This document shows, piece after piece, positions 4,949-32,110 of a stretch of DNA of 32,110 nucleotides. The DNA is from a virus. The stretch is from positions 1-32,110 of the IMG/VR virus record IMGVR_UViG_3300032331_002422; one strand, written 5' to 3'. The translations under genes were made by a program, and so were the position numbers. Below the pieces are notes generated by a model. The model was not told where the DNA came from, made no database searches, and saw only the letters and a list, made by a program, of their open reading frames with translations. The first letter of the stretch is position 1. The number at the start of each line of letters is the position of its first letter.

Positions 4949-5081
4949 AGACATCGGGAAGAACATCAAAGAGCTCCAGGCCGACAACAAGAAGAAGGGC
5001 AAGGCGAAGGGCGCAGGAGGCAAGAAGCGCCCCATCAAGCAGATCATCGCGATCGCCCTCGAGGCCGCACGCGGCAAATGA
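4935..5081 (+). CDS. 48-residue basic phage protein (DUF6496-like)
   Basis: This tiny gene has a clear ribosome site (AGGAG at 4922-4926) before its ATG. The product is very basic, with a run of lysines at 19-25 and a C-terminal helix KRPIKQIIAIALEAARGK. The KQ-IAIAL-xAR ending is a pattern I know from short phage proteins annotated as DUF6496 or unnamed; their role is unknown. It overlaps the upstream gene by 14 bases and the downstream one by four (ATGA), so it is embedded in a tightly packed translational unit. Confidence 0.65.
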   Translation: MPLGKDIGKNIKELQADNKKKGKAKGAGGKKRPIKQIIAIALEAARGK

Positions 5082-5431
5082 GCAAGTACGAGAACCCGAA
5101 GGGCGGGCTCACGGCCGCTGGCCGCGCGAAGTTTCGTCGCGAGGAGGGCGCGAACCTCAAGCCAGGCGTCAAAGGCCCCGCCGATACGCCGGAAAAGATG
5201 CGCCGCAAAGGGAGCTTCCTCGCGCGCTTCTACGGGCGCGACGACGTGCCGCCGCTGACGAAGCCCAACGGCGAGCCCACGCGCTATGCGTTGGCCGCTC
5301 GTGCGTGGGGCGAGAACGCGCCGACGACGCTCTCCGCGGTGCGTGCGCTCGCGGCAAAAGGCCGCCGTCTTCTCGACCGTTACGCCGTGATTCGCGTTGC
5401 ACGCGACCACGCTCGCGGGCCGAAGAAGTGA
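5078..5431 (+). CDS. Conserved phage protein, DUF6321 family
   Basis: This 117-residue basic protein carries the signature NPKGGLTAAGRAKF at 6-19, then LKPGVKGPADTPEKMRRKGS at 27-46 and FLARFYGR directly after. It ends with RYALAARAWGE and an AAKGRRLLDRY segment. I recognise this as the DUF6321 pattern, widespread in phages and of unknown function. Its abundance of Lys/Arg and conserved Gly/Pro turns suggests nucleic-acid contact, but that is speculation. It overlaps the preceding and following genes by four bases each. Confidence 0.75.
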   Translation: MSKYENPKGGLTAAGRAKFRREEGANLKPGVKGPADTPEKMRRKGSFLARFYGRDDVPPLTKPNGEPTRYALAARAWGENAPTTLSAVRALAAKGRRLLDRYAVIRVARDHARGPKK

Positions 5432-6267: not shown

Positions 6268-6306
6268 GCGAATCACCTGAGCAAACAAAAAAACGTCTCC
6301 TAAAGT

Positions 6307-6324
6307 GTTAACGTACGTTGACAC
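6307..6324. promoter_or_regulatory. Operator copy O1
   Basis: The 18-base word GTTAACGTACGTTGACAC occurs here and again at 9312-9329. Its first 16 bases are palindromic except for one symmetric pair, with a perfect AACGTACGTT core. It covers the -35 element of the adjacent promoter, the usual place for a phage repressor to block RNA polymerase. The likely ligand is the HTH protein encoded at 9331, which sits directly behind the second copy. Confidence 0.8.
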
Positions 6325-6346
6325 GATGCACGGGCGTGCGTATGGT
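6318..6346 (+). promoter_or_regulatory. Sigma-70 early promoter
   Basis: TTGACA at 6318-6323 is a perfect -35. TATGGT at 6341-6346 is a good -10, and the spacer is exactly 17 bases. Transcription would begin near 6353 and read the recombination operon starting at 6394. The -35 is embedded in operator O1, so this promoter is probably repressed or modulated by the phage regulator. This is the clearest promoter in the genome. Confidence 0.8.
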
Positions 6347-6393
6347 TTCCGAAGACAGGGAAACGCGATTCCCAAAACGCGCAGGAGACCATC

Positions 6394-6540
6394 ATGTACA
6401 AGCTCGACGAACAGGACGCACAACACGCGGAAGAGCTCCGCGCGCTCGGCTGGGAAGTGGAAGTACACTTCGCCGAGACCGATGACGAGCTCCCGGACTT
6501 CGACGACGCGGAGACCTTCGGCCGTGAGGTGTGGTCGTGA
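6394..6540 (+). CDS. Acidic 48-residue early protein
   Basis: This is the first gene behind the early promoter, with a strong ribosome site (CAGGAGA at 6382-6388). The product is small and very acidic, with the C-terminal half reading ETDDELPDFDDAETFGREVW. The N-terminus MYKLDEQDAQHAEELRALGWEV is a single helix. First genes of phage early operons are often small host-takeover or inhibitor proteins, and an acidic surface could mimic DNA, but nothing here proves either role. It overlaps the next gene as GTGA. Confidence 0.65.
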   Translation: MYKLDEQDAQHAEELRALGWEVEVHFAETDDELPDFDDAETFGREVWS

Positions 6541-6629
6541 CCCGCGGCGAAGTGTTCGTGCAGCTCCTCGGCATCCTCGTCGCCTTCGCGTGTATGGCCG
6601 CGATGGTGCTCGTGTGGGCCGCCCTCTGA
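6537..6629 (+). CDS. 30-residue membrane mini-protein
   Basis: This tiny frame starts at GTG overlapping the previous stop (GTGA), the overlap used for most genes in this genome. The product starts MTRGEVFVQLLGILVAF and continues as one uninterrupted hydrophobic helix to the end, so a single-pass inner-membrane peptide is likely. Its position as second gene of the early operon suggests superinfection exclusion or membrane modulation, but no family is recognised. It could also be a chance frame; the GTGA coupling is the main support. Confidence 0.5.
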   Translation: MTRGEVFVQLLGILVAFACMAAMVLVWAAL

Positions 6630-6640
6630 CGTTGCCACTG

Positions 6641-6659
6641 CGCTCGAGGCCCTCGGGCG
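6641..6659 (+). other. Short hairpin in the leader of the ERF gene
   Basis: CGCTCGA and TCGGGCG can pair around a five-base loop, within the 69-base gap between the membrane mini-protein and the recombinase gene. No T-tract follows, so it is not a clear terminator. It could be an mRNA processing or stability element, or chance in GC-rich DNA. Confidence 0.3.
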
Positions 6660-6698
6660 TAGCAGGCAGCGCCACAAGGCGTTCGCAGGAGAAGGACA

Positions 6699-7283
6699 AT
6701 GGCCACCACGAAGACGACGACCAACGAAGAGCGCCCGCGCACCATCGCGGACGCGCTCGCCGCTGCTCAAGCCGAGCTCACCGACCCGGCAAAGGATAGC
6801 GTCAACCCTCACTTTAAGAGCCGCTACGCCGACTTGGCGACCGTGCTTAAGACCGTGCGCCCCGTGCTCGCCAAGCACGGCATCGCCGTCACGCAGACCA
6901 CGCGCGTGGAGGATGACGGCCGCGTGCTTCTCGTGACGCGCCTGCACTGGCACGACGAGGAGATCGTGGGGTACTACCCCGTAAGCCCGACGAAGAACGA
7001 CCCGCAGGGCCTCGGGTCCGCCATGACCTACGCGCGCCGCTACACGCTCCAGGCGATGGTGGGCGTGGCGGCCGACGAGGACGACGACGGCAACGCGGCC
7101 AGCGCGAAGCCGAGCGCCCCGCAGGCTGACGAGCTCGCGGCGTTCATTGGCAAGGTCAAAGCGTGTAACGACGTGGACGAGCTCCGCACGTGGCGCGCGG
7201 ACGCGGCTCGCTTGGGCGCAGCGGCGACCGCGGCCCTTAACGCCCGCGGCCAGTTCCTCAAGGCCGCAGCGGAGGCACCGTGA
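6699..7283 (+). CDS. erf: ERF-family single-strand annealing protein
   Basis: This 194-residue protein has the two hallmark blocks of ERF recombinases: NPHFKSRYADLATVLKTVRP near residues 35-54 and DPQGLGSAMTYARRYTLQAM near 101-120, followed by an acidic EDDDG stretch. ERF proteins form rings on single-stranded DNA and anneal complementary strands. In phages with P22-like replication this supports genome circularisation and concatemer formation. A classic ribosome site, AGGAG at 6687-6691, sits seven bases from the ATG. The next gene, overlapping by four bases, is a nuclease that could make the single strands it anneals. The C-terminal 60 residues are a variable Ala-rich tail. Confidence 0.9.
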   Translation: MATTKTTTNEERPRTIADALAAAQAELTDPAKDSVNPHFKSRYADLATVLKTVRPVLAKHGIAVTQTTRVEDDGRVLLVTRLHWHDEEIVGYYPVSPTKNDPQGLGSAMTYARRYTLQAMVGVAADEDDDGNAASAKPSAPQADELAAFIGKVKACNDVDELRTWRADAARLGAAATAALNARGQFLKAAAEAP

Positions 7284-8308
7284 ACCGCGTCACCGCCAGC
7301 GGCGCGGGCCGCCTCCTCCAGTGCTCCGGTCACGTGCGCCTTCCGTGGCTCCGTGAGAACAGCGCCGCGGCTTCCGAGGGCACGCGCTTGCACGCCGTCA
7401 TGGAGACCATGCGGGGCGACGCCACCGCCAGCGACGAGATGCGCGGCGAACCGCTCGCGCTCGCGGCCTGGAACGAGCTCGAATCGACGATCCTCTCGAG
7501 CTACGGAGATGTCACGCACCTTGAGCATGAGGCCGCGTTCATCCTCGACACCGAGACCCGCACGGGCCGCCGCGTCACGTTGGCCGCCCCGCGCGAATAC
7601 GGGCCGCTTAAGTGGCACGAAGTGGCCGGCACCGCTGACGCGCTCGTGTGGATCGAACCGCACGACCGCGGCCAGGTCGTCCCGCTCCTCGTGGACTGGA
7701 AGTTCGGCATGGAGCCCGTGCAGGCCGACTCGGCGCAGCTCCGCACCCTCGGCGCGGCGTTCCTGACGACGCCCGCCATGGCCGAACACGAAGGGCTTCA
7801 CGTGGCCATCGTGCAGAGCAACGAGGGCGGCGTAGACGTGCGCATCGGGTACTGGACCCGCGCGGACCTCCTCGCGCACACCGAGCTCCTCGGCGACGCG
7901 TTGAACGACGCCAACGAGGGGCGCATCGAGCTTCAGCGTGGACCGGAGTGCCGCTACTGCCCCGCCGCTGGCTCGTGCCCCGCGCAGCTCGCGGCCATGA
8001 GCGCGCTTGTGGCACCGAGCGGCCCCGGCCCCATCACCACCGCGCGAGCGGGCGAGATATGGGCCGAGCTCCGCCAGGCCAAGAAGCGCCTCGAGGCCAT
8101 CGAGGACGCCTGCAAGGCCCTCGCAGAGCAGGAAGGCGGGCTACCGCTCCCCGGTGGCAAGCGCCTTGTGATGGCCACGCGCTCGCGGAGCAGCGTCGAC
8201 GCGAAGCAGCTCGAGGCCATCGCACGTGGCCACGGAGCAAGCGACGAGGAGATCGAGGCGTGCCGCAAGGTCTCGACCTACACGACCACGCAAGAGGTGA
8301 AGGCGTGA
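7280..8308 (+). CDS. DUF2800 / Cas4-RecB-like Fe-S exonuclease
   Basis: This 342-residue protein starts at GTG (GTGA overlap). It has the ordered features of PD-(D/E)XK nucleases of the DUF2800/Cas4 group. Residues 11-20 contain LLQCSGHVR with Cys15, and EGTRLHAVME contains His38. GTADALVW contains Asp120, and LVDWKFG contains the Asp139-x-Lys141 catalytic pair. Gln153 follows, then CRYCPAAGSC with Cys224, Cys227 and Cys233. The four cysteines can hold an iron-sulfur cluster. The likely role is processing DNA ends for the annealing protein encoded just before it. The C-terminal 100 residues add a helical region and a basic SRSSVDAKQLE segment of unclear role. Confidence 0.85.
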   Translation: MNRVTASGAGRLLQCSGHVRLPWLRENSAAASEGTRLHAVMETMRGDATASDEMRGEPLALAAWNELESTILSSYGDVTHLEHEAAFILDTETRTGRRVTLAAPREYGPLKWHEVAGTADALVWIEPHDRGQVVPLLVDWKFGMEPVQADSAQLRTLGAAFLTTPAMAEHEGLHVAIVQSNEGGVDVRIGYWTRADLLAHTELLGDALNDANEGRIELQRGPECRYCPAAGSCPAQLAAMSALVAPSGPGPITTARAGEIWAELRQAKKRLEAIEDACKALAEQEGGLPLPGGKRLVMATRSRSSVDAKQLEAIARGHGASDEEIEACRKVSTYTTTQEVKA

Positions 8309-8898
8309 AACTGAGTGGCGCATGGGCTGACGTGGAGCGGATCTCGCGCCAGGTGGCCCGGCGCGTCACGCGCCAGCACTTCCGCGAATGGGAGGAAGAC
8401 GTCGTGCAGGAGCTTTTGACCAAGGCCGCCGAAGTCGGACCCGATGAGTTCCTGCGTTTCCGTATCCGCTACGAGGCGATCAGTGTGATCCGGACATGGT
8501 TCGGTCGCATCGGCTCGCACAAGCTCGCTGGTGGTGACTACACGTTCGACCTCGAGGAAGCGATGAGCGTTCCCGCGCAGGCCATCCGGCACGAGGGCTT
8601 CATAGCATGGCACCGGCTCCGCGAGGCCTGGGGCAACCTGACGCCGAACCAGCGGACCGGGATCTACTGCGTACTCACGGACACGACGCCGACCGAGGCC
8701 GCGGAAGAAACCGGCGGCAGGATGCAGTGCATCGACTCGGCTCGACGCAGTGCGCTTGCGCGCATCGACTGCCCTGGCGCGTACACGAAACCGGCGAAGG
8801 ACTACCGAGACGCCACGACCAAGGCGCGCGAGGCCCTGCGGGCTAGACGCGCACGCATGAAAGCACTGGGAATCAAGAGAGATAGGAGCAAAGGATGA
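8305..8898 (+). CDS. Sigma-factor-like protein
   Basis: This 197-residue protein starts at GTG (GTGA overlap). Residues 11-66 resemble sigma-70 region 2: a helix ISRQVARRVTR, then EEDVVQELLTKAAEV, then FRFRIRYEAISVIRTWF in place of the usual R-N-x-x-x-D-x-x-R helix. Residues 108-153 resemble region 4: LTPNQRTGIYCVLTDTTPTEAAEETGG with a following recognition-like helix DSARRSALARI. The layout and length match small ECF-type sigma factors. It may direct host polymerase to late promoters, or act as a DNA-binding relative that lost polymerase contact. It ends with a strongly basic tail. It is encoded within the recombination operon, so it would be made early, as a late activator should be. Family placement is by pattern only. 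Confidence 0.6.
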   Translation: MKLSGAWADVERISRQVARRVTRQHFREWEEDVVQELLTKAAEVGPDEFLRFRIRYEAISVIRTWFGRIGSHKLAGGDYTFDLEEAMSVPAQAIRHEGFIAWHRLREAWGNLTPNQRTGIYCVLTDTTPTEAAEETGGRMQCIDSARRSALARIDCPGAYTKPAKDYRDATTKAREALRARRARMKALGIKRDRSKG

Positions 8899-9263
8899 GC
8901 ATCGAAGACAGACTCGCAGCCCTCGAGGCGGCCGTTTTTGGCAAGGGCGGCAGCGCGCGCAAGGGCGCGAAGCCCATGACCGTGAACATTGACGATCCCA
9001 AGTGGGGCGACCCGGAGATCCGCTACGTGCCGAAGAAGTGGGACGGCCCCTCGCCGGCCGGCCAGCGAATGAGCCAGTGCAGCGTTCGCTTCCTCGAGTT
9101 CCTCGCGGGCGAGCTCGAGCGCAGCGCCGCGTGGAAGGACAACAACGGCAAGGCGGAACACGCCGAGTGGGACCGCCGCGACATGGCCAAGGCGAAGGCG
9201 TGGGCCGAGCGCAAGCGGAGCCAGGGCGAGGGCAGCCTCGACGACGCCGACGACCTCTTCTGA
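8895..9263 (+). CDS. Phage protein with SSB-like acidic tail; possible ssDNA-associated factor
   Basis: This 122-residue protein has an N-terminal helix (MSIEDRLAALEAAVFG), then a conserved-looking core with YVPKKWDGPSPAGQRMSQCS, FLEFLAGELE and DRRDMAKAKAWAERKR. I have seen this core pattern in phage proteins encoded next to ERF or SSB genes; its function is not established. The last residues, LDDADDLF, are an acidic tip ending in Phe, like the tail by which bacterial SSB recruits partner enzymes. No OB fold is visible, so it is not an SSB itself. It starts by ATGA overlap and ends just before a terminator. Confidence 0.6.
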   Translation: MSIEDRLAALEAAVFGKGGSARKGAKPMTVNIDDPKWGDPEIRYVPKKWDGPSPAGQRMSQCSVRFLEFLAGELERSAAWKDNNGKAEHAEWDRRDMAKAKAWAERKRSQGEGSLDDADDLF

Positions 9264-9275
9264 CCTGCAACGCTC

Positions 9276-9307
9276 GGGGCGGCTTCGGTCGCCCCTTGCG
9301 TGTTTGC
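9276..9307 (+). terminator. Rho-independent terminator of early operon 1
   Basis: GGGGCGGC and GTCGCCCC pair as an eight-base stem (one G-T pair) around a stable TTCG tetraloop, followed by the moderately T-rich TTGCGTGTTTGC. It lies 12 bases after the stop at 9263 and just before operator O2, so it should insulate the regulator gene from transcription arriving from the early promoter. Confidence 0.75.
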
Positions 9308-9324
9308 ATCCGTTAACGTACGTT
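9296..9324 (+). promoter_or_regulatory. Weak promoter candidate for the regulator operon
   Basis: TTGCGT (9296-9301) and TACGTT (9319-9324) are separated by 17 bases. Both match sigma-70 consensus only partly, and the -10 falls inside operator O2. The predicted transcription start is at or next to the ATG at 9331, which would make a leaderless mRNA. A competing TTGACA at 9323-9328 has no acceptable -10 downstream. Confidence 0.35.
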
Positions 9325-9329
9325 GACAC
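9312..9329. promoter_or_regulatory. Operator copy O2
   Basis: This is an exact second copy of the 18-base word at 6307-6324, including its near-palindromic 16-base core. It ends one base before the ATG of the HTH regulator gene, so binding here would directly control the regulator and the replication operon behind it. I found no third copy in the window by eye. Confidence 0.8.
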
Positions 9330-9330
9330 C

Positions 9331-9525
9331 ATGAAGGCAATTAACCAAAGCACGATGACGATGACGGAGATCGCCGCAGCGGCCGGCATCAGCCGCACCG
9401 GCCTCTACCTATGGTTGCGCCGTCCCGGCATGGGCCGCGCCGATACGGCGCAGCGCATCGCAAAGGTGCTCGGCGTGACCGTTGAGGAGCTCCTTCGCCA
9501 AAAGGCCCGCCGTGCTCGTGCTTGA
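9331..9525 (+). CDS. Small HTH regulator, Cro/XRE type
   Basis: This 64-residue protein has a classic helix-turn-helix: MTEIAAAAGISRTGLYLWLR around residues 11-30, followed by TAQRIAKVLGVTVEELL, the third and fourth helices of the XRE fold. Its size fits a Cro-like repressor with no separate dimer or cleavage domain. Start chosen at 9331 because operator O2 ends just before it; an in-frame ATG at 9355 is also possible. No Shine-Dalgarno sequence precedes either. The two identical operators, one here and one at the early promoter, make it the probable autoregulated controller of both early operons. The basic tail RQKARRARA may help DNA binding. It overlaps the next gene. Confidence 0.85.
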   Translation: MKAINQSTMTMTEIAAAAGISRTGLYLWLRRPGMGRADTAQRIAKVLGVTVEELLRQKARRARA

Positions 9526-9940
9526 CCTGACCGGCCAACGCTTCGGGCTTTTGACGGCGTGCGAGCGTCGCCCAACGCCACCGAGCGATCGTAAGAAGAA
9601 TCGTTATTGGGAGTGCGTGTGCGAGTGCGGTCAACGCGTCACGGTGCGCGCGAATCACCTTCGCTCGGGCGCAACCCGCTCGTGCGGATGCAAGCGCACG
9701 TACGACCTATGGGGCCAGCGATTCGGTCGCCTGGTCGTGGTCGACCGCTCGGAGAAGCAATTTGACGGCCTCCGCCGTTGGGTGTGCGAGTGCGACTGCG
9801 GAGCCCGCAACGTGCTGCGCTTCGGGTGGCAGCTCCGCGCGCGTGATTCGGTCTCGTGCGGCTGCGCGCTCCGTGATGCGCAAGCCGAGTTTGCAGCGCG
9901 CGCCCTCAAGGCGCGGAGGAGAGAACCATGCGAACCGTAG
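9512..9940 (+). CDS. Tandem zinc-motif protein (SCGC repeats, HNH/AP2-associated type)
   Basis: The start is uncertain: GTG at 9512 (AAAGG six bases upstream) or GTG at 9518. From 9512 the product is 142 residues made of two copies of one unit. Unit 1 reads LTGQRFGLLTACERR...WECVCECG...RSGATRSCGC, with Cys35, 37, 39, 58 and 60. Unit 2 reads LWGQRFGRLVVVDRS...WVCECDCG...RDSVSCGC, with Cys92, 94, 96, 116 and 118. Such units occur in phages, often fused to AP2 or HNH domains of homing endonucleases. No nuclease domain is present here, so this may be a stand-alone zinc DNA-binding protein or a remnant. A half-like copy is encoded at 14292. Confidence 0.75.
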   Translation: MLVLDLTGQRFGLLTACERRPTPPSDRKKNRYWECVCECGQRVTVRANHLRSGATRSCGCKRTYDLWGQRFGRLVVVDRSEKQFDGLRRWVCECDCGARNVLRFGWQLRARDSVSCGCALRDAQAEFAARALKARRREPCEP

Positions 9941-10170
9941 AAGAATTGGAAGCACTCTTGGAGGTGGCCACGCGCGAGCGCGACGAAGCGCGCGCCGAGG
10001 TGGCGCGGCTCACCGACGAACGCGACGAGCTTCTCGTTCGCGTGGCCGACCAGGGCGCGGAGCTTCGCGCAACGCGGGAGGCGTACGTGGACGCCTACCG
10101 ACGCGGAGTGGAGGCTATGCGCGAGTCGTGGTGTCGGATGCGCGCCCTGCCGATCCCGGAGGAGCCATGA
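9928..10170 (+). CDS. Coiled-coil phage protein of unknown function
   Basis: This 80-residue protein has a good ribosome site (GGAGAGA) before the ATG and overlaps the zinc-motif gene by 13 bases. Residues 3-60 are a continuous charged helix with regular leucines and valines (VEELEALLEVATRERDEARA and onward), a likely coiled-coil dimer. The rest is short, with ESWCRMRALPIPEEP at the end. It resembles the next gene product in style. It may be a scaffold, an RNA-polymerase-modifying factor or filler; the sequence does not decide. Confidence 0.6.
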   Translation: MRTVEELEALLEVATRERDEARAEVARLTDERDELLVRVADQGAELRATREAYVDAYRRGVEAMRESWCRMRALPIPEEP

Positions 10171-10556
10171 ACCTCGACGCAATCGAAGGACGCTGGCCCG
10201 AAAACCGACTTGCAAACAGCGACGCCCGCACCGACGTGCTCGCGCTCATCGCCCGCGTGCGGGAGCTTGAAGAAGAGCGCGACCAGGCGCTTGCGGACTA
10301 CCAAGACCTAGGCCGCGTCATGCACGAGGAGTGCTCGCGGCTGGAGTCCGAGTGCGAGCGCCTGAAGACGTTCGCTGCGCAGAACTTCTCGCAGATGATT
10401 CGCCAGGAGGCCGAGCAAATGCGCGAGTACGGCCTCAGCTACGAGGGCGTGCGGAAGGTGCTCCGCGAGTACGACGACGGAGAGATCTCGTTCGGAAAAT
10501 TGATGGACCTGATTCGCGCCGCAGCGCGGGCGATGGCAGAGGACATGAAGAAATGA
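10167..10556 (+). CDS. Coiled-coil phage protein of unknown function
   Basis: This 129-residue protein starts at the ATG overlapping the previous stop (ATGA); the frame is open far upstream but that part shadows the preceding genes. Residues 20-75 form a charged helix (VRELEEERDQALADYQDLG and ECSRLESECERLK). Residues 95-129 form a second helical region with DDGEISFGKLMDLIRAAARAM. I recognise no family. Two adjacent coiled-coil genes suggest they could act together or derive from one another. Confidence 0.6.
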   Translation: MNLDAIEGRWPENRLANSDARTDVLALIARVRELEEERDQALADYQDLGRVMHEECSRLESECERLKTFAAQNFSQMIRQEAEQMREYGLSYEGVRKVLREYDDGEISFGKLMDLIRAAARAMAEDMKK

Positions 10557-10792
10557 GCGGTTACTTCACCATGACACCAAGCATCATCGACAACGACGCA
10601 CGCAACCACAACGGCGCAGGGTGCTCCGTGAGAATCACGTTCGAGGCTGGGCACATGGACGACTACGACCGCCCCTGCTTCGACGTGCTCGTGCTCGTGG
10701 ACGACGAGCGCATGGCGACGCTGACGCTGCACTACGAGGCCGCCACGGAGCTTTGCAAGGCGCTGAAGGGCGCGATGAAGGGGGACCGATGA
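10553..10792 (+). CDS. Hypothetical early protein, alpha-beta
   Basis: This 79-residue protein starts by ATGA overlap. It has the alternation of a small alpha/beta domain: CSVRITFEAG, CFDVLVLVDDERMATLTLHY and a closing helix EAATELCKALKGAMKG. The sequence is slightly acidic, with three cysteines but no metal motif. I recognise no family. The coupling to its neighbours indicates it is part of the regulator-led early operon. Confidence 0.55.
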   Translation: MSGYFTMTPSIIDNDARNHNGAGCSVRITFEAGHMDDYDRPCFDVLVLVDDERMATLTLHYEAATELCKALKGAMKGDR

Positions 10793-11220
10793 CCCTCGAA
10801 GACCTCGGCCTCCGCGCGGTGGCCTGCAAGCATTGGCGGTGGATGCCTGGGATGATCACGCACTCCGGTGAGCGCGTGTTCGCCGTGGACAACAAAGAAA
10901 ACGTGAAGCACATCTTCGTGCTGACGCCTGGGCAGTTCGTTCGTTCGCTCCGCGCGGATGAACGAGTGCCAAGGATTGACGACCCCGCAACGCTCGGCTG
11001 CCTGCTCGCGCTGGTGCGGGAGGCGTGGACGCGTGACGCAGACTTCAACGAGTGGGTCGCCTACGCAGTGCCGATATTTGACGGGCTGGAGACATGGCGC
11101 GTCGGGTGCTTCACCGGAGAGCAAAAAATGATTGCGATTTGCAACATGTCCACGATGAAACCGGTGGACGCATCGACCGAAGCCGAAGCCCTCGTCGCCG
11201 CACTGGAGGCCGCGCCATGA
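10789..11220 (+). CDS. Conserved phage protein with CKHWRWMPGM motif
   Basis: This 143-residue protein starts by ATGA overlap. The N-terminal block LRAVACKHWRWMPGM and the later block DDPATLGCLLALVREAW are a pairing I recognise from many small-phage genomes, in proteins annotated as hypothetical. The space between holds a variable insert, here HSGERVFAVDNKENVKHIF. The C-terminus ends in an Ala/Glu-rich helix (ASTEAEALVAALEAAP). Function is unknown; its wide occurrence suggests a useful rather than decaying gene. Confidence 0.65.
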   Translation: MTLEDLGLRAVACKHWRWMPGMITHSGERVFAVDNKENVKHIFVLTPGQFVRSLRADERVPRIDDPATLGCLLALVREAWTRDADFNEWVAYAVPIFDGLETWRVGCFTGEQKMIAICNMSTMKPVDASTEAEALVAALEAAP

Positions 11221-11408
11221 CGATCAAAGTCTTCGCCGTCTACCAAGACGGTCGCCGTGAAGAGGTCGGCCCCGACGAGGAGGGCTTCTACCGCGCACCG
11301 AACGACGCGCTCTACGTCGAGCACGTCGAGACGGGCTGGTACGACTTCCACGCCAAGCAGGTGGGTATCAACTGGGCCATCAGCAGGCCGAGCGACGAGG
11401 AACCATGA
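11217..11408 (+). CDS. Small hypothetical early protein
   Basis: This 63-residue protein starts by ATGA overlap. It reads as a compact beta-rich domain: TIKVFAVYQDGRREEVG, then DALYVEHVETGWYDFHAKQ, then a short Pro/Glu-rich end. Aromatic residues are frequent. I recognise no motif. Support rests on the coupled start and the continuous operon. Confidence 0.5.
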   Translation: MTIKVFAVYQDGRREEVGPDEEGFYRAPNDALYVEHVETGWYDFHAKQVGINWAISRPSDEEP

Positions 11409-11716
11409 CCCGCGAAGACTTTGAAGGCCCCGGCCACTTCTGCGGCAGCTCGGCTTGCCGATTCGCACGGCACACGCACGTCGGCCCCTACTGCGTTTCC
11501 ACCGTAGGAGACTACTGGCCACGCGGTGCCAAGCAGCGCGAAGACATCGGATACAAGCGTACGCACGAAACGATGGTCTTCCGCCTTGACGACAAGGGCG
11601 AGACGGACGGCAACAACATCGACTTCGCACCATACAACGACGACGAAGCCGCATCCTTTGGGCACGAGCGCATGGTTCGCAAGTGGCTCGGCGTGGCGCG
11701 ACGGAGGAAGCTATGA
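11405..11716 (+). CDS. Hypothetical phage protein with Cys/His-rich N-terminus
   Basis: This 103-residue protein starts by ATGA overlap. Residues 8-36 hold GPGHFCGSSACRFARHTHVG and then PYCVSTVGDYWP, with three cysteines and several histidines that could bind zinc. The later IGYKRTHETMVFRLD region looks like a small beta unit with acidic surroundings. The HFCG...CRF...THVG pattern recurs in phage genomes as an unnamed protein. I do not know its function. Confidence 0.6.
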   Translation: MTREDFEGPGHFCGSSACRFARHTHVGPYCVSTVGDYWPRGAKQREDIGYKRTHETMVFRLDDKGETDGNNIDFAPYNDDEAASFGHERMVRKWLGVARRRKL

Positions 11717-11907
11717 CCCGCGAGCACCTAACCGTCCACCAGCTCCCAGGCTCCCGCACCGTCACGCTCTACTGCGGGCGATGCACGGGCGCGTTGCACC
11801 TGGCGCTTCCGGTGCGGGCAAGCGAGCTCACCGAGGCGGTGCAGCAGTTCAGCGGCCGCCACGGAGCGTGCCGCGAGATGCTTGCGGAGGAGCCAAAGGG
11901 CGCGTAG
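11713..11907 (+). CDS. Small zinc-ribbon-like protein
   Basis: This 64-residue protein starts at the ATG overlapping the previous stop (ATGA). A strand pair ends in LYCGRCTG, supplying a CxxC knuckle. A later GRHGACREML supplies His and Cys that could complete a zinc site. It is the last of the run of small genes and is followed by about 110 bases without a clear gene. Role unknown; nucleic-acid binding is a guess from the motif. Confidence 0.55.
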   Translation: MTREHLTVHQLPGSRTVTLYCGRCTGALHLALPVRASELTEAVQQFSGRHGACREMLAEEPKGA

Positions 11908-12023
11908 AAAGAACGAGCCCCCGGAACGCGACCAACGTCCGAGGGCAGAAAATCAATCAGGCAAGACCTAGGCTAGCGCCATCATGGGCGCTTGTCGAGC
12001 CTTGCCATCACGCGGGAATGGTT
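11908..12023 (+). other. Short intergenic stretch before the replication gene
   Basis: This 116-base gap holds an imperfect hairpin (GCCC pairing with GGGC, and GGA with TCC, between about 11919 and 11948) and no convincing sigma-70 promoter. There is no T-tract, so it is probably not a terminator. It may contain a ribosome-loading site for the replication gene or a processing site. I see no other signal. Confidence 0.35.
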
Positions 12024-12716
12024 ATGGCGGGATGGTACAAGCAACACACGAGCGAGCTCGCATCGCTCGAAGCGTTCGCAAGGTGCGGACGAGCGGACGT
12101 GCTCGCGGCATGGCTCCGCGTCACGCGGTGGACCGTAGACCACGAATCCGACGAGCTCCCGGAAGAGATGGCCGCGGAGCGCGTCACGTTGCAGGACGCT
12201 GGCTTGCTCATGACCTTTGCAGACCGGTGCAACGGGCTCACGAAGCATCGCGAAGCAACGGCCAGGTGGAGGGAGCGCAAGGCAACCGCAATCACACCTA
12301 GCGTGACATCACGTGATATCACCGAACATCACGTGACCTCACGTGATAACCAAGACAAGACAAGACAAGACAAGACTTCTATAGAAGATCGAAAAGAGAA
12401 CGCCGCCGGGAGCGGCGACGCGGGCGTGTCAAAGCGTGAGACGCGGCAGCAGCTCGTGGCGCGCTTCGACGCTTGGACGCCAAGCGACGAGACAAAGGCC
12501 ATGACGAAGGCGCTAGGCTTCAGCATCGAAGCAGAGCGGCCATTCATCCGCGACTGGCTCCTTTCAACGCAGAAGCCGTGGAAAGGGAGCTTCGATGCAG
12601 GCGTGCGCAATTGGGCACGCCGAAACGCGCCCAAGCAAGCCGCGCCGCGTCCCGTCGTCAAAGGATGGGACGACGGCGACACGTGGCTAGGCATCCCGAA
12701 GGGCGGCACCCGATGA
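12024..12716 (+). CDS. Phage replication initiator (O-like)
   Basis: This 230-residue protein is given the ATG at 12024; the ATG at 12018 is also possible, but its spacing to the GCGGGA ribosome-like site is too short. The N-terminal 90 residues (AGWYKQHTSEL, then AWLRVTRWTVDHESDELPEE, then LMTFADRCN) look like the winged-helix domain of phage replication organisers. The middle holds TSRD repeats and the stretch QDKTRQDKT, which in this gene class is the translation of origin repeats. The C-terminal 80 residues (TRQQLVARFDAW, then WLLSTQKPWKGSFDAGVRNWARR) match the helicase-loading ends of such proteins. A replicative helicase follows directly by ATGA overlap, supporting an initiator that recruits it. 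Confidence 0.75.
   Translation: MAGWYKQHTSELASLEAFARCGRADVLAAWLRVTRWTVDHESDELPEEMAAERVTLQDAGLLMTFADRCNGLTKHREATARWRERKATAITPSVTSRDITEHHVTSRDNQDKTRQDKTSIEDRKENAAGSGDAGVSKRETRQQLVARFDAWTPSDETKAMTKALGFSIEAERPFIRDWLLSTQKPWKGSFDAGVRNWARRNAPKQAAPRPVVKGWDDGDTWLGIPKGGTR
12299..12390. other. Putative replication origin inside the initiator gene
   Basis: Five 10-base units lie head to tail from 12299 to 12348. Units two, four and five contain the palindrome TCACGTGA (12309, 12329, 12339); units one and three are degenerate. Next come five CAAGA repeats (12351-12375), then the perfect palindrome CTTCTATAGAAG (12376-12387) and a locally A-rich stretch. Iterons followed by an easily melted region inside the initiator gene is the arrangement of lambda-type origins. 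The unit length is close to one helical turn, so all sites would face the same side of the DNA. Confidence 0.7.
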
Positions 12717-14053
12717 GCTCCCTCGTCGACCTCGAGGCCGAGCTTGCGGCGTGCGTCTTCGTCACCAGCACGACCGCGGCCGCGCGGGCGGGCGTCTTCG
12801 AGCGACTGGACCCGTCACACTTCGCGCAGCAGCCATGCGGCGACTTTTGGCGCGTGGCCAAGGCCTTCGAGGCCGAGGGAACAAGCACCGCGTGGGCGCG
12901 AGTCTGCGAGGCGCTACAGGCAAGCGGAGCGTCGCACCCTAACAGCAGGTCGTGGAAGGATTGGTTTCTCGCCATCCGCGACCAGGCCGCGCCCTACCTC
13001 ACCCGCGGAGGTCTCGCGCCAGACGAGCGAGCGGAGGAGCTCGTGGGCGACCTGCTGAACGCAGCCGAGCGCCGAGAGATTCGGCGCGTGTGCCTCGAAG
13101 GTGCAGCAAGGGCAGAGCAGAAGCGCGAGGCCGGCCAGGCGTTGCGCCAAGAGCTTGCAGAGCGTCTCGTGATCCGCACGGCCGAGCGGGACGAAGGCCT
13201 TGTGTCGACCCGTGAGGCCGCGGTGGAGCTCCTCGAGCGCCTCCAGGCGAGGACGAGCGCGGCAACCCCGAGCCCGTGGCCAAACGTCGACCGTCACGCC
13301 CCGCTGACGCCTGGGAGCCTCACGGTGCTCGCGGCGGCAACGGGCGTGGGTAAGACGGTGCTCGGCATCCAGTACGCCCGCGCGTGCCATCACGCGGGAG
13401 CGTGGTGCATGTTCGTCGGTCTCGAGATGGGCGCAGGGCAGAACCTCGCCCGCGTGGCCCGGCAGGAGTACGGCATCGAGCACCGGCCCGAGCTCGCGCC
13501 CGAGCCCTTGCGGGCGCAGGCGTATTCGATCCTGACGCGCTCGGTCTCACGACTCGTGGAGGAGGGCCTTCGCATCGAGTGGGCGTGCAGCCCCGTGCAG
13601 AGCACCGACCACGTGGCGATGCGCGCCAAGCTCTTCGGGGCACGCCTGGCGGAGCAGGGTGAGCGCCTTGGCCTTGTCGTGGTGGACTACCTCGGCATCC
13701 TGACACCGACCAGCGAAGACGCGCGCAACAGGCGCGAGCGCCACGAGCTCTTCGGCGAATACGCGCTCCGGCTCAAGACGCTTGCGCGTACGCTCAACGT
13801 CCCGGTCATCGCGCTGGCGCAGCTTAACCGCGAGGCCGAAAAAGCCGGCGCACGCGCCACGCGCGGCATGATTGGAGATAGCTACGCCATCCTGCGGCAC
13901 GCGGATAACGTGCTGATTCTCACCCGCCCGATACCGGGCACCGAGAGCGAGGGAGCGAGCGAACCCCGCCTCAGCATCCAGAAGGCCCGCGAAGGTTCTC
14001 CGGCCTGGTTCACTCTCAACTGGAACGCCCAACACGAACGGTACGACGCATGA
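12713..14053 (+). CDS. DnaB-type replicative helicase
   Basis: This 446-residue protein starts by ATGA overlap. The N-terminal 180 residues are a helical domain. The ATPase core shows Walker A AATGVGKT (208-215, Lys214), GLEM with Glu238, Walker B LVVVDYLGIL with Asp325, the VIALAQLNRE motif near 365-373 and a closing SIQKAREGSPAWFTL with the arginine-finger region. These define the RecA-like fold of DnaB helicases. It should form a hexamer that unwinds the phage fork and is loaded by the initiator encoded just upstream. Encoding its own helicase means the phage need not steal the host DnaB, though it still lacks a polymerase and primase. Confidence 0.9.
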   Translation: MSSLVDLEAELAACVFVTSTTAAARAGVFERLDPSHFAQQPCGDFWRVAKAFEAEGTSTAWARVCEALQASGASHPNSRSWKDWFLAIRDQAAPYLTRGGLAPDERAEELVGDLLNAAERREIRRVCLEGAARAEQKREAGQALRQELAERLVIRTAERDEGLVSTREAAVELLERLQARTSAATPSPWPNVDRHAPLTPGSLTVLAAATGVGKTVLGIQYARACHHAGAWCMFVGLEMGAGQNLARVARQEYGIEHRPELAPEPLRAQAYSILTRSVSRLVEEGLRIEWACSPVQSTDHVAMRAKLFGARLAEQGERLGLVVVDYLGILTPTSEDARNRRERHELFGEYALRLKTLARTLNVPVIALAQLNREAEKAGARATRGMIGDSYAILRHADNVLILTRPIPGTESEGASEPRLSIQKAREGSPAWFTLNWNAQHERYDA

Positions 14054-14295
14054 TCCGCATCGAAGAACATCAAATCAAACGCATCGACGCCATCGCCAAG
14101 GCCGCGGGCGAAGAGGCCGTGGACGTGTTCACGCGCGCCCTGGTGGAGCTCGGCGACGACATGACCGCCGGCGAGCTCACGGGGTGGCTTTGGGACGAGA
14201 GCGTGCGCGTGGGCCTCGAGCAACGCAGCGCGCACCGCAGCAAGCCCGAGCACGTGGCGGCCTGGCAGGCCATCGAGGAGGATATGGGCGTATGA
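14050..14295 (+). CDS. Small hypothetical protein of the replication operon
   Basis: This 81-residue protein starts by ATGA overlap and is helical throughout. It opens MIRIEEHQIKRIDAIAKAAG, then VDVFTRALVELGDDMTAGEL, then WLWDESVRVGLEQRSAHRS. It is moderately acidic and has no recognised motif. Its place between helicase and resolvase suggests a DNA-metabolism accessory, without direct evidence. Confidence 0.55.
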   Translation: MIRIEEHQIKRIDAIAKAAGEEAVDVFTRALVELGDDMTAGELTGWLWDESVRVGLEQRSAHRSKPEHVAAWQAIEEDMGV

Positions 14296-14528
14296 CAACC
14301 CGAGGCCCCATGATGCACCTGAACCGCCCGGCCAAGTTCAAGCCGGGCGACACGTGGCACAACTGGACCGTGCTCGAGCTCCTCGTGGCCGGCCCGCGCG
14401 GTGCCGATCGGCAGTGGCTCATCGTCTGCGGGTGCGGATACCAAAGCCGACGATGGGAAAACGAGATGGGAACGCGGGGCGGCAAGTGTGTCTCGTGCGC
14501 CAACGGAGACACGAGGAAGAAGCCATGA
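14292..14528 (+). CDS. Single zinc-motif protein related to the SCGC family
   Basis: This 78-residue protein starts by ATGA overlap. It matches one unit of the tandem zinc protein encoded at 9512: FKPGDTWHNWTVLELL parallels GQRFGRLVVVD, WLIVCGCGYQSRRWE parallels the CxCxCG knuckle, and GGKCVSCANG replaces SCGC. Metal ligands would be Cys46, Cys48, Cys66 and Cys69. It is divergent at DNA level, so not a recent duplication. DNA or RNA binding is likely for the fold. No nuclease domain is fused. Confidence 0.6.
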   Translation: MTTRGPMMHLNRPAKFKPGDTWHNWTVLELLVAGPRGADRQWLIVCGCGYQSRRWENEMGTRGGKCVSCANGDTRKKP

Positions 14529-15178
14529 GCAAGCGACGACTGACCGCCGACGAAATCAACGTGCCATCGTTCGCGCACGACGTGCCGGGAGGGTATCCGG
14601 TCTACACGAGCGAGAGCATGGGATGGGATTTGTGCGTGCATATCTTCGCGCCGCACGTGCCGAGCCCACGCCCCCGCGTGACGCGCTTCGGGTCGTTCAT
14701 GCCCACCGAGTACCGCGTGCATTGCCAGAAGCTCGCGGCCTCCCTGGCCTACGCGCGAGGGCTTCACGAGGCGACGAAACGCCCGTGGGACGCCCGCGCA
14801 GCCTTCCGTGTGGACCTGGCGTTTTGGGGCGAGACGCAACGCGGAGACCTCGACAACCTGGCGAAGACGATCATGGACGCCGGCCAGCTTCACCGAGGCG
14901 AAACCCCCGGCGCGGAGCTTTGGCAGAACGACCGGCAGATCCGCTCGCTCCTCGTCGACTGGATTGACGTAGAGGACGATGCGCAGTGGAGCCAGCTCGT
15001 GGTGAGGGTACGCGCCCTCCCGACCCGCAGCGCCAACATACCAAACGCGGAAGCAGAACCGGCCCAAGAACGAACGAACGCCGAGCCGGGCACCGTAGGT
15101 GGCTTGGAGAGGCCAAATGCCCGCCAAAGGGCAACGGAGGCCAAGCAAAAGCCAAAGGCCAAAAAGGCCAGCAAATGA
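14525..15178 (+). CDS. rusA: RusA-like Holliday junction resolvase
   Basis: This 217-residue protein starts by ATGA overlap. The motif RGDLDNLAKTIMDAG places Asp108, Asp110 and Lys114, and WQNDRQIRSL places Asp136. These acidic residues and the lysine match the catalytic set of RusA. An upstream PRPRVTRFG strand is also typical. RusA cuts four-way junctions, clearing recombination intermediates before packaging, and fits the ERF and nuclease genes. The N-terminal 45 residues and the Lys/Ala-rich last 50 (ending KPKAKKASK) extend beyond the usual 120-residue fold and may bind DNA. Confidence 0.9.
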   Translation: MSKRRLTADEINVPSFAHDVPGGYPVYTSESMGWDLCVHIFAPHVPSPRPRVTRFGSFMPTEYRVHCQKLAASLAYARGLHEATKRPWDARAAFRVDLAFWGETQRGDLDNLAKTIMDAGQLHRGETPGAELWQNDRQIRSLLVDWIDVEDDAQWSQLVVRVRALPTRSANIPNAEAEPAQERTNAEPGTVGGLERPNARQRATEAKQKPKAKKASK

Positions 15179-15366
15179 GCGAACCCATGGGCAGCTTTGC
15201 GGAATGGCGATGCTCGGAGTGCGGCCGGCTCGAGGTAGCGGAGACGGTGTGGAACAAGCGCGCCCGTGTCTCGAGGTGGCCGATCGGATGGCGCATCGTC
15301 GAAAGCGAGACGTTCGCCCGCGTGGTGTGCCCGAGGTGCGTTGCGCAGAGCGACGAGCCGCGCTAG
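15175..15366 (+). CDS. Small zinc-ribbon protein
   Basis: This 63-residue protein starts by ATGA overlap. Two CxxC knuckles are visible: RCSECGR at 12-18 and VVCPRCVAQ near 50-58, the spacing of a small zinc ribbon. Between them lies a basic, Trp-rich stretch (NKRARVSRWPIGWRIV). It is the last gene before the strong terminator of the regulator-led operon. A nucleic-acid or polymerase-binding role would be usual for the fold but is not shown. Confidence 0.6.
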   Translation: MSEPMGSFAEWRCSECGRLEVAETVWNKRARVSRWPIGWRIVESETFARVVCPRCVAQSDEPR

Positions 15367-15404
15367 CGTCGCAGGTCTCTCAGATACGCTGAGGGAACCC
15401 CCCA

Positions 15405-15441
15405 GACCCGTGCCGGGCTTCCCGGTGCGGGTCACTCTTTA
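15405..15441 (+). terminator. Strong Rho-independent terminator of early operon 2
   Basis: GACCCGTGCCGGG and CCCGGTGCGGGTC form a 13-base stem with two adjacent wobble pairs and a CTT loop (15405-15433), followed by ACTCTTTA. It closes the operon that starts at the HTH regulator. A smaller hairpin, CTCAG-ATACG-CTGAG, lies just upstream at 15379-15393. Confidence 0.8.
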
Positions 15442-31050: not shown

Positions 31051-32110
31051 TGGCCGACGTAACGATCCGCACTCCGCAAGGAGAGCTTTTCACCGGCCCG
31101 CAAGAGCGCGTCGCGAAGTTCCAGGAGCTCATCCCTGGCGCGCAGGTGCTCACGCCCGAGCAGGCGACCGAGGCCGCACGCGTCGAGGCGCTGCGCGAGG
31201 AGCAAGGCGGCATCACGGGCGCGGGCGTGCAGTTCGCCGAGAGCCTTATCGAGGGCGGGACGGCGCTCCCCATCGGCCAGGCGCTTGAGCGCGCCTATGG
31301 GCGTCTCAAGGGTGGCGAGCAAGGCGAGCAAGAGGCCATCGAGCGAATGCGCATCCGCGAGGAGCAACAGCCCGCGGCAGCTCTCGCAGGGCTGGCCATC
31401 GGCTTCGGTGGCGCGGCGCTCGTGCCGGGCGTTGGCGAAGCCGTGGGCGCGGCCCGTGCGGCCCGTCTCGCGACGACCGCCCCGCGTGCGATTATGGGCC
31501 TTGGTGGCCGTGCGGCGGCGCTTGCGGAAGCGCGCGTGGCTCAAGAGGGCATCAAGCGCGGCATCGCGGGCGCAGCAGCTCGCGGCGTGGCGGAAGGCGC
31601 AGCCCTCGGCACCGGCCAACTTGCGAAAGACCTGGTGCTTGACCGCGACATTAGCGGTGAGCTCGTGGCCGAGCGCATCCTAGGTGGCGCACTCATCGGC
31701 GGCGCGGGCGGTGCGCTTTTCGAGGGCCTTGGGCAAGCCGCAGTGAAGGCAGCGGAAGCAGCCGGCGCAGGAACCGCGCTCGGTCTCGCTGGCGCTGGCC
31801 TTGGTGGCGCTATGTTCGGCGTCCCCGGCGCGGCGGCCGGCGGCTACCTCGGCACCCGTGTAGGTCGCGCGCTTGGCAAGAGCGCCGCAGCGGGCGAGCG
31901 TGCAGCATTGGCAGAGGCAGCCGAGCGCGAGGCGTTCGCGGCCAAAGCGGCACGCGGCGAGACCGTCAAGACGGGCGATCTGACCGCCGAAGAGCGCGCG
32001 GCCATCCTCGACCGCGCGGAGCTCGAGGCCATCAACGAGACGGCCCTCCGTGAGGAGGAAATGGGCGGCCTCGACTCAGCGGAGGCGGAGCTCGTGCGTA
32101 AGCAGCGCGC
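31050..32110 (+). CDS. Internal virion / ejection protein, N-terminal part (runs off the edge)
   Basis: This piece starts at the TAATG overlap and runs off the window edge. Through the terminal repeat it continues in frame at base 2, for 1024 residues in total. The first 100 residues are globular and polar. Three hydrophobic glycine-zipper stretches follow, near 109-136 (LAGLAIGFGGAALVPGVG), 210-226 (ILGGALIGGAGGALFEG) and 240-266 (LAGAGLGGAMFGVPGAAAGG), each able to insert in a membrane. A charged helical region follows and continues in the other piece. The combination, membrane segments first and a very long helical tail after, is typical of the largest ejection protein of short-tailed phages. 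Confidence 0.75.
   Translation, partial: MADVTIRTPQGELFTGPQERVAKFQELIPGAQVLTPEQATEAARVEALREEQGGITGAGVQFAESLIEGGTALPIGQALERAYGRLKGGEQGEQEAIERMRIREEQQPAAALAGLAIGFGGAALVPGVGEAVGAARAARLATTAPRAIMGLGGRAAALAEARVAQEGIKRGIAGAAARGVAEGAALGTGQLAKDLVLDRDISGELVAERILGGALIGGAGGALFEGLGQAAVKAAEAAGAGTALGLAGAGLGGAMFGVPGAAAGGYLGTRVGRALGKSAAAGERAALAEAAEREAFAAKAARGETVKTGDLTAEERAAILDRAELEAINETALREEEMGGLDSAEAELVRKQR
31988..32110. repeat. Right copy of the 123-bp direct terminal repeat
   Basis: This stretch is identical over its full length to bases 1-123. It closes the circle, and the ejection-protein frame (starting 31050) passes through it without change. The unit genome is therefore 31,987 bp. Confidence 0.95.

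Follow-up and report, generated by a model that had tools for sequence, protein, structure and literature searches.

The window analysed here comprises 32,110 nt of the IMG/VR virus record IMGVR_UViG_3300032331_002422. All recognisable genes lie on one strand, as the original prediction had it, and the features described below are on the + strand. A recombination unit lies between an early promoter (P1, 6318–6346) and a terminator-like hairpin (9276–9295). Its first gene is an ORF for a 48-aa acidic protein (6394–6540; AGGAG ribosome site, no family match), followed by genes for an Erf-like single-strand annealing protein (6699–7283; Pfam ERF, 1.2e-25; PHROG 2324, 2e-42) and a PD-(D/E)XK exonuclease (7280–8308; family match to DUF2800), a 197-aa gene (8305–8898; no family match, missing in a sibling contig and in relative G001) and, as the last gene, that of a 122-aa protein (8895–9263), which has no family match and is conserved in relatives G001–G004, G013 and G024.

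The hairpin parts this unit from a second one. Behind it lies the gene of a 64-aa XRE/HTH_3 regulator (9331–9525), followed directly by a gene for a zinc-motif protein (9518–9940) and, among small ORFs, by genes for a DnaB-like helicase (12713–14053) and a RusA-like resolvase (about 14522–15178), both recognised by family matches. Another terminator-like hairpin (15405–15433) ends the probable remainder of this second unit (9518–15433). As the consensus scan called neither a promoter nor a terminator on the + strand from 9525 to 15405, the regulator probably heads the unit and is probably co-transcribed with the helicase and the resolvase. Bases 1–123 of the window are identical to bases 31988–32110, and the G001 record shows the same over 127 bases; both records look like closed circles or permuted genomes.

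P1 has a −35 element TTGACA (6318–6323), a 17-nt spacer and a −10 element TATGGT (6341–6346). It had been described as a perfectly spaced sigma-70 promoter; the spacing is indeed ideal, but the −10 element matches the consensus at only 4 of 6 positions (10 of 12 overall). The consensus scan called P1 as the sole sigma-70-like promoter of the genome on either strand. Since about 0.5–1.4 such promoters are expected by chance per scanned stretch, the weight rests on the conservation of P1 in relatives: it is present as TTGACA-17-TATAGT in G001, G024 and G013. The leader (6358–6386) consists of a conserved hairpin, GGGAAACGCGATTCCC (6358–6373), upstream of the first ribosome site, and then ACGCGCAGGAG; it is nearly invariant in all relatives, including G004. 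As G004 has no regulator, the leader hairpin is independent of the regulator. Across the window, G002, G001, G004, G013 and G024, the product of the first P1 gene ends in an acidic stretch that stays constant (DFDDAETFGREVW and variants), and its N-terminal part is exchangeable; both where the gene lies and how its product is composed would be in keeping with an early anti-defence protein.

An 18-base word, GTTAACGTACGTTGACAC, occurs exactly twice on the + strand, at 6307–6324 and 9312–9329, as originally reported. No copy is expected in shuffled sequence, and the window holds no further match within three mismatches save the reverse of copy 1. Copy 1 is itself part of a near-palindrome of 20 bp, GTGTTAACGTACGTTGACAC (GTGTTAACGT followed by ACGTTGACAC; 6305–6324), in which 9 of 10 pairs match, a level attained by only 4 of the 32,091 20-mers of the window. 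This putative operator, O1, contains the TTGACA of P1 and thus spans its −35. Copy 2, the putative operator O2, has 7 of 8 pairs over a 16-bp core (9312–9327) and abuts the start codon of the regulator gene, ending one base before the ATG at 9331. The positions of both copies, and their near-palindromic character, are as they had been described. The two sites are about 3 kb apart, on units of the same orientation. A third, weaker operator scored at 9302 (18 bits) was rejected: most of it is the self-complementary GTTAAC half-site over again, and the sibling lacks the other half. The sequence GTTTGCAT at 9302–9317, which precedes O2 by 10 bp (one helical turn) and is absent from the sibling, may be a third half-site.

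The regulator is the only HTH_3 protein of the genome (Pfam; E = 6.6e-8, 32.9 bits versus a curated cut-off of 23). Its predicted structure is a five-helix XRE fold (pLDDT 85; helices 2–6, 11–18, 22–30, 37–47 and 51–63), and the model lies near the structures of SinR, P22 c2 and C proteins (Foldseek probability ~1, with weak E-values). The recognition helix, G-[IL]-[ST]-R-x-G-L-Y, is nearly constant among orthologues. A match to the HI1420/HigA-like antitoxin family TIGR02684 (26.9 bits) fell below its cut-off of 53.7. When genome contigs were searched with the regulator alignment, the sole outcome was a partial match of 28 residues in two Nocardia, and a PDB sequence-profile search yielded nothing but designed repeat proteins and further matches that were short and repetitive. 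While AGGAG or a similar sequence precedes most early genes of the window, the regulator genes of the window, G001 and G024 have no Shine-Dalgarno sequence between O2 and their ATG (G013 has AGGTGA). The absence of a ribosome site suggests a near-leaderless message, as for cI and cro of PY54, whose messages are leaderless and in which a 16-bp palindromic operator adjoins the cI start codon (PMC4488713).

Regulator orthologues, 56–97% identical to the protein of the window, were found in four other phage records; the distant relatives were retrieved by DnaB and terminase searches. A separate collection of Erf-based relatives (80 loci) had little in common beyond Erf and added no informative genome. 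The group has no close relative in the named-phage collection, where the best terminase match was 26% over 58% of the protein. The sibling contig IMGVR_UViG_3300045999_007911 (G002) has the identical word pair at the same two places. In the more distant genomes, a related dyad was again found at both places: in G001 (regulator 63% identical), GTGTTAACGTGCGTTGACAC on the P1 −35 and GTTAGCATACGTTGAC, then GAC, before the ATG; in G013 (59%), GTGTTAACAGGTGTTGACAC on the −35 and GTTATCAGGTGATGAC directly before the ATG; and in G024 (56%), GTGTTAACAGGCGTTGACAC on the −35 and GCTAACGAACGTAAAC directly before the ATG. All four further regulator-bearing records therefore have the paired sites, with the second dyad 0–3 nt before the regulator ATG in every regulator-bearing genome, and none of these records keeps the regulator without them. 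The claim that the two operators are identical holds for the window and its near-identical sibling; elsewhere, the words differ between the two sites.

The dyad cores drift between lineages (CGTACG, CGTGCG/CATACG, CAGGTG), and the arms are largely kept. O1 and O2 of G013 are the same apart from one symmetric pair, positions 5 and 12; nothing else in its 25 kb lies within three mismatches of its O1. With a leave-one-genome-out matrix, the two sites ranked first and second in the window (matrix trained without its sibling), G001 and G024, and first and fourth in G013. The second site of G024 is the weakest, with 5 of 8 pairs and a similarity to its own first site that is within the shuffle range. 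Modest support comes from the symmetry of the eight distinct sites, whose halves match each other at 47 pairs versus 42.4 for shuffled halves (P = 0.02).

One relative that spans both regions, G004, has no HTH_3 protein and serves as a negative control (n = 1). Promoter (TTGACT, TATATG) and leader, the latter with GGGAAACGCGACTCCC, are retained in G004; the left arm of the palindrome is gone, and there is no hairpin or dyad directly behind the homologue of the 122-aa protein. The dyad is thus missing together with the regulator. A host regulator, rather than the phage protein, might read the dyads, and the sequence alone is compatible with a host factor; nevertheless, we regard this as very unlikely, since G004 lost the dyad together with the phage HTH protein, O2 is attached to the regulator gene and the core drifts with the phage lineage.

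The repeat could also be a chance match or a promoter-derived duplication (two −35 regions) with no operator function. In line with this, the word contains TTGACA, and seven unrelated contigs match a loosened form of it, GTGTTAACNNNYGTTGACAC, with no regulator orthologue found in the stretches examined. Yet shuffling gives an expectation of zero copies, O2 has no −10 at the right distance and several lineages conserve, at both sites, the left arm that a −35 does not need, so that we give this explanation almost no credence. Among the contigs matching GTGTTAACNNNYGTTGACAC, L210 contains, about 3 kb away from its copy of the loosened word, a weak regulator-profile match (E = 4.5e-4, small search set). 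Dyads with three mismatches in G055 and G044 lie inside an amidase-like gene and were set aside as chance. A nearly perfect similar dyad, TGTGTTAACACGTGTTGACACA, was observed at 12073–12092 of the otherwise unrelated L216 (IMGVR_UViG_3300009038_000003), with no regulator orthologue in the stretch examined.

The surroundings of the regulator vary. In G001, G024 and G013, an extra gene, whose window copy is at 5078–5431, lies between the 122-aa gene and the regulator; the hairpin and O2 stay with the regulator even though the upstream gene differs between lineages. The gene behind the regulator encodes a zinc-motif protein in the window, is a coiled-coil-type ORF in G001 and is a second XRE gene in G013 (G013:C1:31926-32150). 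In G003, a record without the promoter region, an unrelated XRE gene (G003:C1:26250-26500) is located directly behind the homologue of the 122-aa protein, with no matching dyad. Regulators seem to be exchanged at this locus.

The hairpin between the units has a C(UUCG)G loop and a weak U tract and sits 16–17 nt before O2. Its folding energy is −24.1 kcal/mol (z = −4.4) in the window and −19.2 kcal/mol (z = −2.4) in G001, and its stem shows compensatory changes among the window and relatives (GGGGCG/CGCCCC, GAGCCG/CGGCTC, GGGCCT/AGGCCC); the consensus scan did not call it as a terminator. At O2, neither the scan nor inspection by eye found a recognisable sigma-70 consensus. The TTGACA of O2 was rejected as a working −35 because there is no −10-like hexamer at the right distance in the window or in G001, where O2 reads TTGACG instead of TTGACA; the TTGAC of O2 is therefore not kept as a promoter element. 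Two other registers read by eye (TTGCGT-17-TACGTT and an extended −10, TGnTA) are not kept across lineages. Thus, of the proposed promoter of a replication operon at 9312, the dyad is there, but the promoter itself is only presumed, with no sigma-70 consensus found.

These observations bear on a reading with a single promoter, where P1 would be read through to the regulator with partial termination at 9276–9295, and protein bound at O2 would act as a roadblock or a termination aid. The conserved hairpin with its compensatory changes so close to O2 and the lack of a promoter consensus at O2 would both fit. Small XRE dimers are usually weak roadblocks, which counts against such a role for O2; moreover, if P1 drove all expression, there would be little sense in a second conserved terminator-like element, and the lack of a ribosome site is easier to reconcile with transcription beginning at the ATG than with a long message. 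We consider the single-promoter reading unlikely.

We favour a linear circuit with two operators, as originally proposed, on the grounds that paired dyads occur in all regulator-bearing relatives and the dyad is absent from G004, which lacks the HTH_3 protein. A Cro-like 64-aa dimer would repress both P1 and its own gene through two near-palindromic operators, a reading to which we assign a probability of roughly 75%. The XRE protein would dimerise on the two sites. At O1, it would cover the −35 of P1, a strong early promoter, and block RNA polymerase, turning off the recombination unit (the first gene, Erf, the exonuclease and others); at O2, just before its own ATG, it would block its own gene together with the replication unit that follows. 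Both units would fire at the start of infection, and as the protein accumulates, both would be turned down. Such a circuit, confined to one strand and lacking a CI partner, would amount to a Cro-like brake by negative feedback. As O1 spans the whole consensus −35 and O2 adjoins the start codon, repression at both sites is the simplest reading. The protein could instead have a dual role, activating at one site and repressing at the other, like the C proteins of restriction-modification systems or lambda CI. It shares the XRE fold class with C proteins, and the centre of O1, ~38.5 bp before the predicted start, is near activator positions. Still, the −35 that O1 covers entirely is already consensus, so an activator should be unneeded, and there is only one operator per promoter; a dual role is improbable.

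The proposed circuit would act in the manner of Cro, yet it does not amount to a CI/Cro switch. The latter point had been made in the original prediction and is borne out: there is one HTH_3 protein, both sites have the same direction and no divergent promoter was called. Like lambda-type Cro, the system would comprise an HTH repressor of very small size, sites of a single short palindrome each and a brake (here proposed) on early transcription. It differs in that no divergent promoter pair, CI partner, operator cluster or integrase was found and the operators are 3 kb apart on units of the same direction. No PF00589 (tyrosine) or PF00239 (serine) integrase match was detected in the window or its relatives; lysogeny, if there is any, might be extrachromosomal. 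Judged as a Cro-like system, the locus has a clear palindrome on the −35 of the early promoter and a second one abutting the start codon of the regulator, whose own promoter is not recognisable.

Aca proteins are HTH proteins of 60–65 aa that recognise an inverted repeat within the core promoter of their own operon, which they repress (PMC9410906). Regulator size, the proposed autorepressor logic and an inverted repeat in the promoter are alike; unlike Aca, the regulator here does not belong to the unit of the P1 genes but has a unit to itself, preceded by a hairpin and a second operator. No anti-CRISPR gene was identified here, and the first P1 gene (6394–6540) has no known family. HigA/HI1420-type antitoxins are similar in the weak HMM match below the cut-off and in the proposed logic of an XRE autorepressor, whereas here there is no conserved toxin partner, the downstream gene differing among relatives. 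In the lytic phage SPP1, according to the accessible text of PMC6316719, gp34 is a small putative repressor, its function a prediction, encoded amid early replication and recombination genes; the general idea thus has a precedent, although that text describes no paired operators for gp34. Small repressors (Cro, Aca and, putatively, SPP1 gp34) are known already; the candidate described here differs in having its own unit and two distant operators of the same direction.

More tentatively, and with somewhat less than even confidence, we suggest that the hairpin together with the operator and the regulator makes up a detachable ‘brake cassette’. Its carriers would split one long early operon in two, with a matching operator on the promoter 3 kb upstream, and G004-like phages would run one unbraked operon. 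Both distant operators would then evolve in step with the regulator, and the lineages would provide a natural series of protein–operator pairs.

If the favoured circuit is true, these phages would have a minimal Cro-type early-gene brake without a lysogeny switch, in a group without a close named-phage relative. The system offers one 64-aa protein, two sites, diverged lineages with co-drifting operators and a relative without both. Operator–repressor co-evolution, and the purpose of Cro-like feedback where no lysogeny genes are detected, would then become directly testable.
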